Both the position numbers and the translations under genes were made by a program. The notes under the pieces are model-generated. The model worked only from the letters and a program-made list of their open reading frames with translations, had not been told where the DNA came from and did no database searches. From Daucus carota subsp. sativus (lineage: Eukaryota > Streptophyta > Magnoliopsida > Apiales > Apiaceae), in contig NC_030386.2 of NCBI RefSeq assembly GCF_001625215.2, positions 37,885,296-37,949,295 on the forward strand: a stretch of DNA of 64,000 bases, written 5' to 3'. Shown here piece by piece: positions 8,374-54,275 of the stretch (its first letter is position 1; every line of letters begins with the position of its first letter).

Positions 8374-11190
8374 ACCACTTTATATAGAGTCTAGTAGAGA
8401 ACACTCATATACATACATAAAATACATATATCAATCGAATTATTCATTAAATATCTATTGAATAAAATAAAAATGAAGTTAGGTCATAAGTTTTTTAAAA
8501 AAACGTCGAAAAATTATATTATCCAAACTGGTTCTACGATAAGCCAAGTTTCGGCTCTTGGGATGCTTGGAGCCTTGATGAGGCTCTACTGGGCCCGGGG
8601 TGAACTGAGTGGGGCCGGTAGGCCCTAGGTGAGTGATGTCACATAGGGGGTGGGTGATGTCACATAGGGGTGGATGATGTGATATATGGGTGGTTTCTCT
8701 TGGTTTGTGTTTTGTTTTTATTTCAGTGGTTTGTATTTGAGCAATTGCCTATATTATTAGCTCATATATACAATTACATGACTAAGACATCCTTCCGAGC
8801 AAGCCAACTCTAATGCAATCAATATGGGTAAAAGTACCAAATGAAATTAAAGATTTGTTAATATAGGTGTATTTTATATGTAAACAATACAACCTACTTT
8901 GAACTTTGAATATACAACCTAGGTTACAGACAAAGTACTTGAAAGGGATCCCCTTTCTATCTTGCTAGTTACTCATAGTGATACTACTTTTTGAGGGTCT
9001 AAGGTTTATTTCAGTAACAGAAATTCACGGCAGTATATTTCAAGTGCGACAAATATTCCAATAACATACTTCAGACTAGCAATCAGATGCTGAGCTTTTT
9101 GTGCTCGCATATATCAGTCAACTGTATATTTCGTGCACCAACAACTTTGTGATGACTACCTTTGATCTTCATAGAACTGTTGTTCCTTTTGCAGCTTTTA
9201 AATAACGTTGATAGATTAGAAGATTCGAAGTCTGTTGACTATTACAAAAAGAAATACTGCCCAAAGGATAAATGGTCTTGTTTTACTGGATGCTGCATAT
9301 ATTTTCACCTGTCAACTCAGTCGTAAGATCCTTTCTTGTTTTACTTGGCCCTGTAATAAACTTTTTAAGTCCAAGTCTTAGCCTGCCGGGACTAATTTAT
9401 ATAATAGTTTGAGGAATCCAGTATCGAAAGCTTTGCTGGAACTTGCACGAAGAAGGTTGAAGCTTGAAGTTTCCATGGGTGGTGGGAAAGTATGCAGCAG
9501 TCTTTCTCAAGCTACGCATTTGGTTATCCAGTCTCTACTCTTTGTTGATGTGGGTATAGCTGGTCCATTAAATAGGTAGAAATTTACTTCAAGAATCAAG
9601 TCATTTATCTACCTTTCTGTCTACATTGAAAATGTATCTATTCCCCCAAAATTTCGGCAAAACGGAGACTTAAGTTGTAAGTTGATTGTATAGTGATATA
9701 CTTGTTACTTAAAAGTTAACAAGTTTTACTGATTTGTTTCTCTTCTTGACCAGCTTCTCAACCACAGATGTGCATCATATATGTAACAATAAAATGCATG
9801 TCGTTGGGTCTCAGTGGTTGGAGGATTCTATTGAGAGTAGCCAAAGACTAAGCGAGGATACATATAGTATAAAGCTGGAAGGATTAGAAGATCTAAATGT
9901 TGGAGAGTGGTAAGTGACGAGTTTCAGTATGAATATTATAACTGCAAGCATCTAGAGGCTTTGTGCCCAACATGGTGAAGTGAATTCATGAATTGTTCAA
10001 ATGCCACGATTTTTTTTCAACTAAAATTTCATAATGTTTTTCTTTTCCAACACAGACCAGAGAAGAGGTGAGCCACCTTTTTCTTTTTCTGTTACAGAAC
10101 ATAGCATGAATTTCTCGACATGGTAACATGATTTGTGTACAAAGCTATGCCAAAATTTCAATATATTACCTATGCATCGAGCCATCAAGTACAAATAAAT
10201 TTGTATATAGTATACGGGAAATTTATGAGACCCGTATAAGTTCTGTTTTTGTTTTCTCGAGCTTACATACCTAACAGAATTTTCAGTCACGCTCTTGCTT
10301 TGCACTACTAAAATAAAACTTATCTGACAGTTGAAATTCTTTTTCACTGCATCAAGATTATTTTTGGGAAACTATACACAATTAATTTTGTGGCGGTCTA
10401 CTTTATGTGCAGCAAAAGTGAACTCAAAATTGAAGATGAACGTGATATTGATGATGTTGGGAAGCAGAATCTCTTGCATTCTCCTGGTAAAGATGAAAAA
10501 CACAGAAAAACGGAAGCCGTTGCAGTCAGTTATAGCTCAGATGCACCGAGTAGGAAAAGAAGAGGAAGACCTGCTAGCACAAGTAGAAAAGATAAGAAAA
10601 CTGTTAAACGCCAGCCCAAGAGGTTAAGGGCGCGAGTTGGGAACAAACTAGCGAAAATATGTGAAAGCGAGTCAGATGTTGACGTGTGTTTAGAAGATAC
10701 TGGGAAAGAGGAAGAGTCTAAAATAGACTTAGAAATGCATGAAATAGATGAAATGGCGGGCAGGAGGGAGCATGTAAATACTGTAGGTCCTGATACAGTC
10801 AAATACTCTGAATCATCACAAAGAGGCAATGTCATTGAGAATATGGATATAGAAGGCACTGAACGTAGTAAGTGGGTTGATACTCTTCATGGAACTGGTA
10901 TGGAGGAGAGGAAAAGTATCGGTTCGAATGAGCCTGAAAAGTTAGAGGTGATGGTTGATCCAGTCCAAAGCCTGTTGCTCGATATGATCCCAAGTCTTGG
11001 GACGCAGACTAATGCTGTTACCGAAAGTAAACCACAGCCACAGACTAATGCTGTTACTGAAAGTAAACCACAGCCACAGACTAATGCTGTTACTGAAAGT
11101 AAACCGCAGCCTTCAGAACCTAATCAAGTGCCTACAAAAAAGAAGAAAGTTAGCTATAAAGATCTCGCATATAACCTCCTTGGGGATTAG
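279..11190 (+). CDS. LIG4: DNA ligase IV (ATP-dependent, NHEJ), 5' partial
   Basis: Nuclear ATP-dependent ligase that seals breaks in non-homologous end joining with XRCC4. Twenty exons keep one frame (885 codons with stop): 279-358, 486-523, 615-621, 766-921, 2925-3000, 4259-4383, 4482-4516, 4599-4657, 4831-4914, 5291-5386, 5466-5514, 5664-5751, 6573-6773, 7204-7329, 7453-7552, 7640-7745, 9195-9322, 9408-9575, 9754-9909, 10413-11190. Seen in order: motif III ILDGEMLVWD, motif IIIa VAFDILYVGD, motif IV DEGIVLKDL, motif V WLKLKPEYIR, OB-fold (GYYGSGRRGGEVAQF, FCRVGTGLSDEELD), then two BRCT domains flanking an XRCC4-binding-like linker (EYSDSYFLDLD). A Lys-rich tail ends in KKKKVSYKDLAYNLLGD, as in plant LIG4. 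The first exons with the catalytic lysine motif lie before base 1; 1-278 reads as intron. Introns hold several MITEs. Identity is strong; exon edges are hand-derived. Confidence 0.93.
615..621 (+). other. LIG4: probable 7-nt microexon of LIG4
   Basis: The exon ending at 523 closes in phase 0 after DRQ, and the exon starting at 766 needs one base plus two codons before it to give the conserved LCYVAFD. The bases TTGTGCT between an acceptor (tgcag, ends 614) and a donor (gt at 622-623) supply exactly Leu, Cys and the first base of Tyr. No other nearby arrangement restores the frame. Transcript data are not available here. Confidence 0.75.
2070..2818. mobile_element. hAT-like MITE remnant in LIG4 intron
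   Basis: Starts with a sequence like the common plant hAT end GAGCCCGTTTRGCTTAA (2070 on) followed by repeated 'acttaaaagt' words, and ends near 2818 with a purine/pyrimidine-mirrored ACAAACACCCTC. The interior (2270-2600) is very AT-rich. No clear 8-bp target duplication is seen, so this may be two fragments. Confidence 0.4.
5811..6067. mobile_element. Stowaway-type MITE (Tc1/mariner)
   Basis: Bounded by TA on both sides. Left end CTCCCTTTGTCTTGCAAA mirrors the right end (…GGACGGAGGGAG). AT-rich interior, 257 bp, no coding. Lies in the intron between the LIG4 exons ending 5751 and starting 6573. Confidence 0.8.
6273..6524. mobile_element. Stowaway-type MITE, 48 bp before a LIG4 exon
   Basis: TA-flanked, CTCCCTCTGTCCC at the left and GGGACGGAGGGAG at the right, 252 bp. 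It ends 48 bp upstream of the LIG4 exon at 6573, so it lies close to the branch point/acceptor region of that intron. Second MITE of the same type in the same intron. Confidence 0.82.
7775..8299. mobile_element. Mutator-type foldback MITE with 9-bp TSD
   Basis: A long inverted repeat: the left arm beginning GGGTTAATAATCAA pairs with the right arm ending TTGATTATTAACCCG over roughly 250 bp each, so the element is almost a full hairpin. It is flanked by identical TTTACTATA at 7766-7774 and 8300-8308. A 9-bp duplication with long terminal inverted repeats fits Mutator-like elements. No transposase seen. Inside the LIG4 intron 7746-9194. Confidence 0.85.
8321..8373. repeat. compound (AT)n(AG)n microsatellite
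   Basis: About 17 AT units followed by about 9 AG units, 13 bases after the target duplication of the foldback MITE. Confidence 0.95.
8633..8693. repeat. short tandem repeat, about 20-bp unit, in a GC-rich patch
   Basis: Three units: GTGATGTCACATAGGGGGTGG, a second copy one G shorter, and a diverged third (ATGATGTGATATATGGGTGG). Each of the first two contains the palindrome GTGATGTCAC. The preceding 70 bases are unusually GC-rich for this region, suggesting a piece of an unrecognised element. Confidence 0.8.
11005..11112 (+). repeat. three 36-bp tandem repeats in the LIG4 last exon
   Basis: Three in-frame copies at 11005-11040, 11041-11076 and 11077-11112 encode QTNAVTESKPQP three times. 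Copies differ by only one or two bases, so the expansion is recent. It sits between the second BRCT domain and the conserved C-terminal KKKKVSYKDLAY tail, in a low-complexity linker. Confidence 0.92.
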
Positions 11191-47158: not shown

Positions 47159-49967
47159 ATGATGAACGTGCAGCAACAGCAGCAGGATGGAATAACAAGC
47201 AGTACTAGGAAGGATTATGGGATGAGGAGGACAAGGTCGCTGCCCACGAGCTCAAGGGAGGAGAAGCCACAGTCAGTAGATTTTGTCTTGGATTTGAGTG
47301 GAATGTCTCTGGACTCGCTTCCTAATCCCTCTATTAATTTAGCACTCATCTCCAAGTTAGACCTCTCCAATAACAACCTTCAGGTACTACTTCACTATAT
47401 CTCCTTTACTTATGACTAGTAATATTATGCAATGACTATTGAGACTAGTACATCAACCACACATCATGCACACCATGCAGCATATACCAGCAGTGCTGTT
47501 TCAACCAACATGATTGATTTGTCAGCCACATCAGCAGCTGAGTTGTTACAGCTGTTAGTTAGAGGAACAATAGATACAGTTAGTGATAGAAGTTGTATAT
47601 ATAGAAGTTAGTTACTCAGTTAGTGGTGGTCTTCTGTATATATACTCAACACCACACTGTATAGCTTATCTTTTCTTTCCATACAGTTTGTAAAACAATA
47701 GCTTAAGTCTTCAATATACAGAGCTTTCTCTGCAACTTTTCTCTTCATATAGCAACATACTCTGAATTTCAATAATGACGATATCGATACCCTGTGTGTC
47801 TCTTCCATCTCCGCCCTTGTATGTTGTATGCCATGTTGTCAAGTTGTGACATGATTGTTCAATAGTATAAGATCATTTTCTACCCTTTGTTTGTTCAATT
47901 TCAATTAATATTGGCAATATTTACGGGATTTAGATTAACCGGTTACTTAAAATGAGAGCAGACCTGCCAAAATGTCAGAGTATATTGTGCGTTTTTGGCA
48001 AGCACACTTCTTTCGATAATAAGTCGATTTCTACTTTTCCTACCCCGTTTTTATAGAGCCAGAAGCACTTATAAGAAGCTGAGAAAACTAACTTTTGTTC
48101 AAGGACTTCTACTTATTTCTAAAACAATTTAATCACTTATAAGTCTTAATTTACTTCTCATTTCTAGTCAACTACATAACTTTTAAGCAAGAGATTTTTA
48201 TTTTTATTTTTAAGTTTATTCAAACGGCCCATTATATGTATATAATTTGTGCATTTATTGATTAGTTGTGGTGCTCATGTATATTGTTGAAACTGCAGAG
48301 CATACCAGAGTCATTAACAGCAAGACTCCTGAATGTTACGGTCCTGGACGTGCACTCCAATCAGCTGACAACACTTCCAAACTCAATCGGATGTTTGTCC
48401 AAACTCAAGATTTTAAATGTCTCCGGCAACCATCTCCGCTCCCTCCCCACTACCATTGAAAATTGCAGGTAATTCTTTTTCTAACTCCATTTATATATTC
48501 AATCTGTCTCATCAAACCACTAAAGAGTCCTTCCACATTTCTAAGTCAATATAAATACTCCGTATATCATGCTAATCCGGAGAGCATGCAAGTTAATCCG
48601 AACACCCGGTATAAAAAATTCCACGAGGAAGGCAGTAGTAGAGTATATAATATGATTATATGAGTACTGATATACGTTGACTATTGCAATTTGCAACTTG
48701 ATAACACCGAGCGCTAATATGCTTTTGGAAACTAACGGTGACATATATATTATTCTATGCACGAGACAATTCATTTTCAATGCGTAGTTGTGTAGTAGAT
48801 TGAGTATTTTTTTACTCTAGAGGTTTTAGTTTGACAAAATGGTCGAGCTTATTAAATTCAACTAAAATGACCCCAACTATTTAGACCCGTTGTTTGGCAA
48901 AAATATATTAAAGTCGTAGTTTAAGTTTTACGCTGTTGTGTAAAAATCCTAATTCTGAAGAAGTAAATAGAGTTGTTTGTCATTTACTTGGAGCCTTCAA
49001 CATTGATGCAAAGCCTATAATTAGTTGATGTAATTTTTTAAAATTCAGCTAATTTTTCCTAAACAATGACCTCAGGATCATGTAATATCACCCTGGTGAA
49101 ATTATCAAAAAAGTTGAGGGTTCAATCTTCTAAAGATAAGAAGAGATAACTTTTTATGAATCAAAATTGAAAATTTCAGAAAAGATCATCAGCACATATA
49201 TATTTTCTTATACCAGCAGCTTCTGCTTCCAATTTTATTTAATTCTTGTACTAAACTTGAACAGATCACTGGAGGAGCTAAATGCAAATTTCAACATGCT
49301 AACAAAAGTGACAGACACAATAGGGTTTGAGCTCATCAACTTAAAGAAACTCTCTCTCAACTCAAACAAGCTTGCTTTCCTCCCATCCTCCACCTCTCAC
49401 TTAACCAACCTCCGCATCCTAGATGCCCGTCTCAACTGCCTCCGATCCCTCCCCGACGACCTCGAAAACCTGATCAATCTCCAAGTCCTTAACGTGAGCC
49501 AAAACTTCCAGTACCTCACAACCCTACCATACTCCATAGGCCTTCTCATCTCCCTTGTTGAACTTGACATCAGTTACAACACGATCTCTACCTTACCGGA
49601 CTCGATAGGGTGCTTAAAGAAGCTCCAGAAGCTCAGCGTCGAAGGCAATCCTTTGGCTTCCCCGCCAATGGATGTAGTGGAGCAAGGGTTGCAGAGAGTC
49701 AAGGAGTATTTGAGTGATCAGATGAATGGTGCACATATGAAGTCTCTGAGGAAGAAAACATGGATGGGTAGATTAAAGAAATACGGAACTTTTGGGGGAT
49801 CTAGCAGAGGACTTGATAGAGTGAATCAAGGTGATCAAGGACTGGAGAGACAAGGTTTTATTATGAATCCTAATCCTACTGGTTATAGCAGCATTCAAGC
49901 CATTGCTTCACCTAGGTACTTGAGTATGTTTTCACCGCGTCGGCTTTTCTCTCCCAAGAGGTGTTAG
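47159..49967 (+). CDS. plant intracellular Ras-group-related LRR protein (PIRL)
   Basis: Cytosolic leucine-rich-repeat protein of the PIRL family. Three exons, 47159-47383, 48299-48468 and 49265-49967, give 365 residues. Seen: short basic, Gln-containing N-terminus ([14 protein letters not shown]), then about nine LRRs with the SHOC2/Ras-group pattern LxxLPxxIxxLxxLxxLxVSxNxL ([38 protein letters not shown]), and the family tail [19 protein letters not shown] followed by [20 protein letters not shown]. No signal peptide or membrane segment. Two ATGs in tandem open the frame; the first is used. The size and short N-terminus suit the PIRL6/7/8-like subgroup, which is inference. Intron 1 contains repeat-derived sequence. 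Confidence 0.93.
47490..47825 (+). mobile_element. LTR-like remnant in PIRL intron 1
   Basis: Has the order expected of a small Copia-type LTR: TGTTTCAACCAACATG near the left, repeated GTTAGTTA words, a TATA-like TGTATATATAGAAG at 47,595-47,608, then a C/T-rich part and AATTTCAATAATGACGATAT. A clean TG…CA pair with 5-bp duplication was not found. Confidence 0.4.
48010..48232. mobile_element. hAT-like MITE remnant in PIRL intron 1
   Basis: Repeated 'acttataag' words on both strands and the terminal phrase TTTATTCAAACGGCCCA resemble the dispersed hAT MITE family also suspected at 2070-2818. The left end is not clear. Confidence 0.4.
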
Positions 49968-50611: not shown

Positions 50612-51643
50612 TCAAATTCCAGGCGACCGGTGATTGTGTTCTCCTTTATACGTCACAATCAGAACCATCGAATCATTTTTGTCCTTGATTACATGCTTTC
50701 TAGCAGAGCATCCTGTTACGCTATTGCATTTGTAGTATCCACCACTACTGCAAATCACATCAATTTCACAATTTAATCAAACAATTCAAGTATGAACAAA
50801 CATACAAAATAATGGACACAGTGAATGATCGATTGACTCACCGCAATGAGGACCCGGTGATCGACTTGTGGTCGTATTTTTTCCAAGAGTACTCATCTGA
50901 TGGAATCGATAACGATGATGATCCTTTGAGTATTCTTATTCTTCGAGTAATTTCAATCTTTTTCCTGAAACCAATTATAAGAATTTCAATACAAGCTCAC
51001 TATATATGTAACTTCTTGATCACGCGATAACAATATTTATGAGAATATAATATCATTCCTGCCAACATCTTCAGGTTTTGGGAGAATTGTTCGTTAATAT
51101 GTTATATTTAACATATTTTAAGGCATATTTCTAATACCTTCTTTTGCAACAATGACAACCGTGCGAGCTCAACCGATCGCCAAAAATCTGTTCAATTTCA
51201 CGGCGTCTTTTCCGATGAGTAGAAGGAAGAGGAGGCTTCGCCGACGAATAACTACTCTTCATTGCCGGCACCACTGCGCTGCTCCCCGAAAAATTCGGAG
51301 AAATTTTCCGCTGCGAAAAAGGCAGCGGAGGCTTCGCAGACGAATAATTCCTCTTAGCTCCTCCACCAATCAATGCTCCTAACTTCCCATTCGAAACCGT
51401 AGCTTCCTCTCCGGCGATCAACAAAACTTCCGAGGAAATCGAAGATTTAGCGCTCTTACATTCTTCAGCATTAAGTTTAAATTGGAAGCTCTTTTGTTGA
51501 GCTTGATCATCATGAGAATAGGATGAAGTAGAAGTAGTGGATTGATCAGCCGGTCCGCGACGAAACCGGGCGTGACCGGTCCGACGAATCGAATGATTTA
51601 TGTAATTGTTCATACCTCGATACACATCGACTTCAACAGCCAT
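50612..51643 (-). CDS. divergent group IId WRKY factor with WKKYDHK motif
   Basis: Three minus-strand exons, 51138-51643, 50842-50964 and 50612-50747, give an intact 254-residue frame. Group IId hallmarks: MAVEV start, the calmodulin-binding C-motif tail [11 protein letters not shown] at 21-31, KPPL..HRKR segments, a zinc-cluster GCHCCKRR at 162-169, and SDEYSW before the WRKY heptad. The heptad at 196-202 reads WKKYDHK instead of WRKYGQK, and KPIKGSPYPR has become SITGSSLRS. The zinc finger is complete: C217-X5-C223-X23-H247-X-H249, with the family end [11 protein letters not shown]. Relatives run to about 320 residues; about 100 residues between MAVEV and RTGHARF are missing. Introns sit where group IId introns do. 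It may bind other DNA, act as a decoy, or be decaying without a stop codon yet. Confidence 0.85.
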
Positions 51644-54275
51644 TACAACAAAGATTGAATAGAGTAAGTAGAGAGAGAGGTGGAGATTGAAGATACCAAG
51701 GTGAAGAGGAGTTCATGTCTTGTAGTAATAGAAGGTTTAGTATTTTAACTTGCGCAAAAAGTCAAAGATTCAATGTTTTTATCATCAAACGGTTGAGATT
51801 AAATTGAAGTGATTTAGAAGGAGTTGAATAATCGACAGTATACAAAGTTGACGAGTATATCGCACTACCCATACGACTTTTTCTTTTTTATACTCTGTGT
51901 TTCCCCGACATAAAATCATTATTATTTTGGCTGTCGACTAATTTAGTTCTCAGTTATTATTGTGTTAATTATTGTTTATGTAGTATATTAATGATTTAAT
52001 CATTAAATGATGTTCTATCAATTAAAAACCTGGGTAATTACTAAATACATTTTTAACTGATATATATAATTATAATTGATCTCATTAATTTTTTACTATC
52101 TTATTAGTTTTGATGTATTTTTGTGTCAAACTATTGGTCTTTTTAATATTTATATAAAAATAAAAGAATATGTAATATGATTTGACTTTATGGTTCGCAT
52201 TATATATATTGAATGTCGTCAATCGTCATACTACATTAGTTGGATTGGTTCGCTGGTGGATTCGTATCATAAGGCCACAAAATCTCCACAATTAAGAAAT
52301 GGAAAACAGAAAGTTGACTTGATAAATAGGAGTATGTGGTTTGTATATGAGTGCCTGAGTTCAACAAAATTGCTCGGTGATATTGCATTCTTTATAAGCG
52401 AGTAGGAATTGACTAAGTGGGAATACACGTGTGTTTTCACAATTTATATCTCTATATTTTTCTAATTTTGTTTCCATTACATTTATCTAATTTTGTTTGG
52501 TCGATAACATGGTTTAGGGAACAATTTAGTTGACCTATTTCATTCAAGATTTATAAAAAAAATAATCTAAAATAAAGATTTTTTTAATAAATTAGAATAT
52601 AATAATCAATATATAAATAAAATTATTTTAAATATTAATCAAGAATTAATCAGAATATATTTTTTAAAGAATATTTAGAACAGCTGTCAATAGTTGATAC
52701 CAAAAGGAGCTGCTGGGCTGCTAACGTTTACTGTATTATTAAAATATTTAAATAATACGATCAAATATAAATAATATTACGTACGCCCTTCCATTATATA
52801 TACTATATAGTGCACATGAAACAGTTGACTAACCTGTTTATACAATTCTTCCTAATACAACCTGTGCATTGTTTTTATGTAATTTTTTTTATAGATATCA
52901 TTATGAAACTGCTGGATATATATCAATATATAGTTTTGGATTCAAATGATAGCAATTATTCTTAGAATAATTCTCAAAATACTAGAAACAAAGAAGGTGG
53001 TGTAAAGAGTTTAGTCCTGCCGCCGACTTATTGGCAAGGTAAGAATTCGTTTCTCGCTCCAATATTTAGCGGGCATCATATGTTTTTTATTTGATTATTT
53101 TGTTATATAATTTATGTCCTCTCTTTTACATATTTTTTTTAATTCTTATATAATTTAAGGTCCATATAAAAATAATTTGAGTTATTATCTTAATAATTTA
53201 TAATTGATCATTTTATTTTTAAAATTATAAAAACTAACGATTAAAAATATTATTTCTATATACCTCAAATTGGGTTAAAAGTGGAAGCCTATGTGAAAAT
53301 TGAAATAGAGACCGAGGAGTAACGCATCTGAAGAGCATTCCGATTGGCTCTCCCGTATGTTTCCCTATCCTCATAATTTAGGGAATTTCTTAATTTTTTA
53401 TCAAAACTGAAGCTACATCCGAAACCCTAAAATAAGGTTTAGTTTTAGGGACCAAAACTCAAACTCCATATTTGGGGACTCACTGTACATACCCCATCCT
53501 CTTTTCTTTCATTTTTTAGTAGGGATGGGGTAAGATAGGATGGGGAATGAGATGTGGAAGATTTTTAAATTTATGAAGATAATTTTGGAGAATTACTAAA
53601 TTTAGTAAGAATATAGAAATATGAATGCTATGAGCAACCTAAAGGTCGTTAAGTCGTTTAGTTGGTGTGTTTAGTGACCACTTATATGTTGTTCGTTCAC
53701 ATATCTTAAATTCCAGATACCGAGATATTGGTTTTTAATTAATATCTAAAGGATTAGTGATATTGGACTATATGAGGGTAATAAAAACAAATTTTTAGAT
53801 TTTTATCATTATTTAAGTAATCATATATTAATATTTAATAAAAAATTAAATCTATAGCGTAAAAATATATTATGATATAATAATTTTATTAATATTTTTA
53901 ACTAGTTCAAATTATTTTAAATTAAATAAATGGTTTGACTTCAACCATCAACCAATTACACGATATTCTCTTATCCAACCTCCTGTCATGAGTAAATACA
54001 TCTACTTGTACTTGGGCCTTGATGCAACTTACCACTACTATTTCAAACCAGACTCTCACATCACTAGCCCAAACTCAAGCCCAACAAACATCTTCAAGAT
54101 CCGTTGAAACATTTAAAAACAAAAAACACAGACTCGCAAACAGAACTTGACTTGTAATTTGTAAAACCAGACCCATCTTCATCTCAGTTGAAACTTCAAA
54201 TTTCATTTAACATAGAGATCAGATCTGTATAATTTACCCTCAATACAAATAAATCTTGTGAGAAGCTCAACAAAA
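51644..54275. other. intergenic between divergent WRKY-like and glutaredoxin genes
   Basis: The first 100 bases hold the WRKY-like gene's CT-rich leader. Beyond that the stretch is very AT-rich with no exon, RNA gene or complete MITE recognised. Confidence 0.5.

Follow-up and report, generated by a model that had tools for sequence, protein, structure and literature searches.

DcsWRKY47 of carrot, apparently the most changed member of a divergent group IId WRKY offshoot

What can a WRKY protein still do when its DNA-reading heptad is altered at three of seven positions? This question is raised by a carrot (Daucus carota subsp. sativus) gene in a window of 64,000 nucleotides (the whole stretch of contig NC_030386.2 that was analyzed), where the canonical heptad WRKYGQK is absent and WKKYDHK is read instead. 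The heptad codons on the minus strand (50865..50885; TGG AAA AAA TAC GAC CAC AAG) bear out what an earlier, sequence-only reading had noted when read from 50885 to 50865, namely the changes R to K, G to D, and Q to H. The answer we arrive at is graded: the protein belongs to a small divergent lineage, and its most plausible role lies away from the W-box.

The open reading frame and splice model give a three-exon WRKY gene on the minus strand (51643-50612), encoding a protein of 254 amino acids in a frame without internal stop; the gene span proposed earlier (50612..51643) equals this coding span. Exon 1 (51138..51643, minus strand) carries the ATG, the HARF motif, and an internal repeat, and ends in CHCCKR(R). 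It is followed by intron 1 (50965..51137, minus strand; 173 nt, GTATTAG...TTTCAG) and by exon 2 (50842..50964, minus strand), which holds a basic stretch and the heptad and ends two bases into an Arg codon. Intron 2 (50748..50841, minus strand; 94 nt, GTGAGT...TTTGCAG), the PR-type WRKY intron, lies within this split CG/T codon, and exon 3 (50612..50747, minus strand) supplies the end of the codon, the zinc finger CX5CX23HXH, and the stop codon. Both introns run from GT to AG. An alternative downstream splice acceptor (TAG) is possible and leads to 253 amino acids; our model keeps the upstream acceptor, which yields the published length. The frame, splice sites, and zinc ligands are thus intact, as had been stated earlier, and there are no pseudogene marks in the form of a broken frame or broken splice sites. 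The sole Pfam family matched by the protein is WRKY (PF03106; E 7.5e-17, 61.7 bits against a cut-off of 21), and its unbroken zinc finger fits the family pattern CX4-5CX22-23HXH.

Some further features of the gene and its surroundings deserve mention. In exon 1, two 52-nt direct repeat copies (51208..51259 and 51304..51355, minus strand; 83% identical, start-to-start spacing 96 nt), each encoding a 10-residue peptide, lie in frame and together (51208-51355) double a KPPLP module, a doubling present in no other of the nine aligned carrot IId proteins. The 1 kb upstream of the coding span (51644..52643, minus strand) contains eight W-box cores TTGAC on both strands, where the window's own rate predicts 2.64 (Poisson P 0.006, a post hoc test of one among 12 motif/length combinations looked at). 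This excess is only modest because the other eight IId genes carry one to six such cores (six in L020 and five in L023, with 931 nt only for L009). Convergent with the WRKY gene, an exon of a leucine-rich-repeat protein (LRR_8, E 3.4e-14; 49140-49967, plus strand) ends about 0.65 kb from its stop codon, and an open frame at 10312-11190 (plus strand) has three tandem copies of QTNAVTESKPQP near its end. On the same contig, about 112 kb away, lies a group III-like WRKY gene with WRKYGQK, CX7C, and HTC (L049, G000:C6:37821000-37824700). At another locus (L028, G000:C4:39238786-39242300), a frame from locus position 2692 encodes a WRKY-like copy in which PADDGYN is followed almost directly by RYKCTHSNC, without the heptad stretch. 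The copy, which is similar to the N-terminal domain of the L004 group I gene, looks like a damaged one.

Is this gene new? Its length of 254 amino acids, isoelectric point of 10.04, and mass of 28.13 kDa equal the published values of DcsWRKY47 (DCAR_020141), entered in the carrot v2.0 table as II-d with WKKYDHK (PMC6504813), and judged by these values the window gene is DcsWRKY47. An earlier carrot annotation holds DcWRKY76, likewise of 254 amino acids, group IId, and with WKKYDHK (PMC4792144). No difference is seen between these entries and the window gene, the match being one of length, heptad, and group (plus isoelectric point and mass for DcsWRKY47) and not of published protein letters. 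The same 2016 annotation has a second IId protein with WKKYDHK, DcWRKY35, of 248 amino acids (PMC4792144), which may be an allelic version, a transcript form, or a copy arising from the assembly. In the 441-Mb genome, a protein search with 95 candidates, all 95 of them scored, found no second WKKYDHK locus; both halves of the query matched at 97-98% identity at the window locus only, and the next best match (61%) was the place of L023.

The published record also bears on two earlier suggestions. An assembly error behind the heptad had been considered, and we reject it, as the same heptad occurs in two other carrot annotations (DCAR_020141 and DcWRKY76). An assembly slip appears unlikely because heptad, length, isoelectric point, and mass recur in the carrot v2.0 table, and the heptad and the 254 amino acids in the earlier annotation. 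The statement that no WRKY protein with this heptad had been described has to be withdrawn, given that WKKYDHK is printed in PMC6504813, PMC4792144, and PMC6843914, in the last among the WRKY variants of six Asteranae species. The shorter string WKKYD is reported for carrot (PMC6504813, PMC4792144), ginseng (PMC8600734), and Asteranae (PMC6843914), and published accounts include proteins with variant heptads in the WRKY family (PMC6843914, PMC4792144). Gene, heptad, and duplicate pairs are already known from print. As far as the consulted parts of this literature go, gene and heptad figure there as table rows, duplicate pairs, and variant-list entries, without functional work, and in the main text of open-licence papers we found no description of the three genes introduced below as one lineage that lost DNA contacts, calmodulin core, and PF10533 step by step.

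These three genes are the only ones among 67 carrot WRKY genes with Asp at the Gly position, namely DcsWRKY47, DcsWRKY33, and DcsWRKY38 (PMC6504813). The same source lists six of the 67 without WRKYGQK (three with WRKYGKK, two with WKKYDQK, and one with WKKYDHK) and gives DcsWRKY33, DcsWRKY38, and DcsWRKY47 as syntenic duplicates of one another in its Table 3 (PMC6504813). Our locus L023 is DcsWRKY33 (DCAR_014683), and L020 is DcsWRKY38 (DCAR_017993), its model being off the published mass by 0.02 kDa. When the nine carrot IId models are held against the published rows, six (the window gene included) match in length, isoelectric point, and mass, whereas L011 and L016 have no counterpart among the ten II-d rows; for L009 and L018, splice options were chosen for the published lengths. 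Heptads were scanned in 50 loci (42 chosen stretches from the genome search matches and eight from that search itself), and WKKYDQK was read in two of them, L020 and L023.

A tree of the nine carrot IId proteins, all IId by choice, was built after removal of alignment columns 365-381 (heptad to PR). It places the window gene, L020, and L023 in one clade (100/100), whose stem measures 1.44 changes per column, and from this heptad-free clade the R-to-K and G-to-D changes would most simply be ancestral to the three-gene set and the Q-to-H change private to DcsWRKY47. The changes had earlier been taken as three isolated ones in a single gene. That picture has to be corrected, since R to K and G to D are common to DcsWRKY33, DcsWRKY38, and two ginseng IId genes, as far as the published tables go. 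A tree of the domain only, poorly resolved, separates the 11 IId rows as one starred side from four IIe rows; in it, the window gene, flagged as a long branch, fails to join L020 and L023. DcsWRKY47, L020, and L023 have CHCCKRR, (A/G)TVSNGK, KPPLPxxHRKR, and WKKYD in common. DcsWRKY33 and DcsWRKY38 resemble DcsWRKY47 in having two introns at the same places (the CG/T junction of intron 2 being identical in L023), but they differ from it in retaining Q254 and Arg264, in having a His-rich C-terminal tail, and in their heptad, WKKYDQK. In the nine-protein alignment, the window gene lacks this tail. Taken on its sequence, DcsWRKY47 thus appears as the most changed of the three carrot members of a divergent group IId offshoot, the WKKYD lineage.

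Outside carrot, PgWRKY15 and PgWRKY70 of Panax ginseng are IId proteins as well, and PgWRKY15 is reported to be highly expressed in root tissues (PMC8600734). They share WKKYD and the group with DcsWRKY47, whereas their heptad is WKKYDQK instead of WKKYDHK (PMC8600734). Common descent of the ginseng and carrot WKKYD genes would follow from heptad and group only. Among the ten II-d rows of the carrot table, AtWRKY11 is the best hit of only DcsWRKY33, DcsWRKY38, and DcsWRKY47 (PMC6504813). We do not claim the lineage as the carrot counterpart of AtWRKY11, given that the 2016 table names AtWRKY11 also for DcWRKY87, which has WRKYGQK (PMC4792144).

How much of the DNA-reading face is left? Our reference for contacts, to which the domains were aligned, is cotton IId GhWRKY17 (PDB 9m0k), crystallized with DNA (PMC12905487) and with 13 tested residues, whose numbering we follow. 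Together with AtWRKY11 (PDB 8iex), it is the best sequence match among solved structures (E 1.6e-18 and 5.9e-19, respectively); both have the zinc spacing of the window gene but differ from it in carrying WRKYGQK-PIKGSPHPR and all 13 tested contacts. The six canonical carrot IId genes all keep 13 of 13, L020 and L023 keep 10 each, and the window gene keeps eight (W249, K251, Y252, K255, Y266, Y267, K268, and R278). Its five changes are R250K, Q254H, P256S, K258T, and a displaced R264. Common to the lineage as a whole are R250K and G253D, together with replacements of P256 (by L or S) and of K258 (by P or T). After the heptad, five of the six canonical paralogues read PIKGSPHPR and L016 reads PVKGSPHPR; in the window gene, this stretch before GYYKC is rebuilt, as the first reading had observed. 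An indel where exons 2 and 3 meet displaces Arg264, though this displacement hinges on how the sequences are aligned and on which splice acceptor is used: relative to L023, exon 2 is one codon shorter and the start of exon 3 two codons longer (one codon longer with the downstream acceptor), around the same CG/T Arg codon.

In the main text of the GhWRKY17 paper, alanine at 254 or 264 abolishes binding, at 250 or 256 nearly eliminates it, and at 258 weakens it threefold, while Gly253 is not named (PMC12905487). The earlier expectation of altered W-box binding would fit these data, which show R250, Q254, P256, and R264 to be required (PMC12905487). DcsWRKY47 could nonetheless be an ordinary W-box-binding IId factor that tolerates its changes, since it retains eight of the 13 contact residues and a Gln-to-Ala change is tolerated by one group I domain (PMC12905487); with five of 13 contacts changed, four of them at positions where alanine abolishes or nearly eliminates binding in a IId domain (PMC12905487), we regard this as very unlikely. 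Some W-box binding may remain, because the substitutions R to K and Q to H are less drastic than alanine and because of the tolerant group I domain.

The main rival to our preferred explanation is a change of specificity, in which the lineage reads another DNA element: K-K-Y-D-H/Q-K and the rebuilt strand after it would prefer another core, just as WRKYGKK prefers the WK box. The eight contacts kept by the window gene suit this idea, as does the retention of the lineage, with a Ka/Ks of 0.25 between DcsWRKY33 and DcsWRKY38 (PMC6504813), and WKKYDQK is common to two ginseng IId genes (PMC8600734). Precedents are WRKYGKK proteins that bind the WK box more than the W-box, cited in PMC8600734, and NtWRKY12, cited in the carrot paper (PMC6504813). 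An acidic residue at the Gly position and the lost basic residue at 258 would, however, lower the positive charge at the DNA face, and the loop after the heptad differs between the window gene and L020/L023, which leaves no one new reader conserved across the three. On balance, we consider a new specificity unlikely.

Group IId proteins carry further modules, and these are unevenly preserved. DcsWRKY47 has the two introns of a IId gene, one of them of PR type, and its exon 1 contains the HARF motif RTGHARFRR(A/G)P (defined in PMC5980082). Of the IId signature CX5CPARKHVE (PMC8600734), it reads CX5CSARKHVI, two of the seven letters after the second Cys being different. No plant zinc cluster (PF10533) is detected in the window protein, even with E allowed up to 1; L018, the only canonical paralogue searched for it, scores 55 bits (8.6e-15), and L020 and L023 score 16.6 and 21 against a cut-off of 23.5. 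The calmodulin-binding core before HARF, a domain of the kind through which AtWRKY7 binds calmodulin (PMC2390551), is degenerate in the window gene (2/12 identical to L018) and aligns as a gap in L020 and L023. For comparison, the five remaining carrot IId rows are identical to L018 at 5-10/12 positions, among them L022 at 10/12 and L009 at 8/12. The group IId context claimed earlier is therefore kept only in part: tree, introns, and HARF agree with it, PF10533 is undetected, and the calmodulin core is degenerate. With PF10533 unmatched, we file DcsWRKY47 by its sequence as a divergent descendant of IId and not as a typical member.

Is the gene still under constraint, or is it decaying? Published Ka/Ks values of DcsWRKY47 against DcsWRKY33 and DcsWRKY38 are 0.40 and 0.42 (PMC6504813). 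They lie above the 0.25 of its lineage paralogues, which also fits relaxed constraint. Our own dN/dS by counting met saturated synonymous sites and contributes little: dS was infinite for several pairs, and the ratio was 1.00 for the region before the domain between L020 and L009. Within the WRKY domain, lineage members differ from L009, L018, and L022 by a dN of 0.23-0.27, compared with 0.02-0.05 among those three, which argues that the whole lineage, and not DcsWRKY47 alone, diverged fast. Relative-rate tests of the window gene against L020 or L023, of low power, found it significantly faster in none of 12 (lowest P 0.18). We also simulated neutral drift with substitutions only, starting from the window's own coding sequence (500 runs per level): the frame stayed open in a fraction of 0.458, 0.16, 0.02, 0.004, and 0 of runs at 0.02, 0.05, 0.1, 0.2, and 0.4 changes per site, respectively.

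Early functional decay, one of the options of the sequence-only reading, would make DcsWRKY47 a redundant copy under relaxed constraint whose frame is still open by chance. Its pairs have the highest published Ka/Ks of the three (PMC6504813), and the missing C-terminal tail, short N-terminal region, internal repeat, and undetectable PF10533 are all in keeping with such a fate, as is a frame that often outlasts short drift. Longer drift, on the other hand, is rarely survived by the frame, which makes old decay unlikely and any decay recent; splice sites and four zinc ligands are intact, and the relative-rate tests, with their low power, show no significant acceleration. Recent decay or loss of function may have set in, but decay is not the reading we favor and we judge it quite improbable.

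The explanation we prefer, to which we would give an even chance, is that of a folded WRKY protein that has lost much or all of its W-box binding and works through protein contacts, largely free of calmodulin. On the changes common to the lineage (R250K, G253D, and those at P256 and K258), DcsWRKY47 would have added Q254H and the displaced Arg264. The protein should still fold and enter the nucleus, would bind W-boxes weakly or not at all, and may act by, for example, forming pairs with WRKY partners or titrating them; as a modulator, it would be largely released from control by calcium/calmodulin. In favor of this explanation we count the identity of the gene, the heptad-free clade, the loss of contacts, the weakening of the calmodulin core and PF10533, and the Ka/Ks of 0.40 and 0.42; against it, we count the domain-only tree without the lineage grouping, the saturated synonymous sites, and a calmodulin stretch that is degenerate and not absent.

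More broadly, and only tentatively, Apiales may keep a IId WRKY lineage whose DNA-reading face was dismantled stepwise while the fold was kept and calmodulin control was lost; such proteins would act as WRKY antagonists made by the plant itself, and DcsWRKY47 would be the extreme among them. With 13, 10, 10, and 8 of 13 contacts kept, the carrot IId genes offer a graded set in which to ask which losses end W-box binding and whether plants retain such proteins as natural antagonists.
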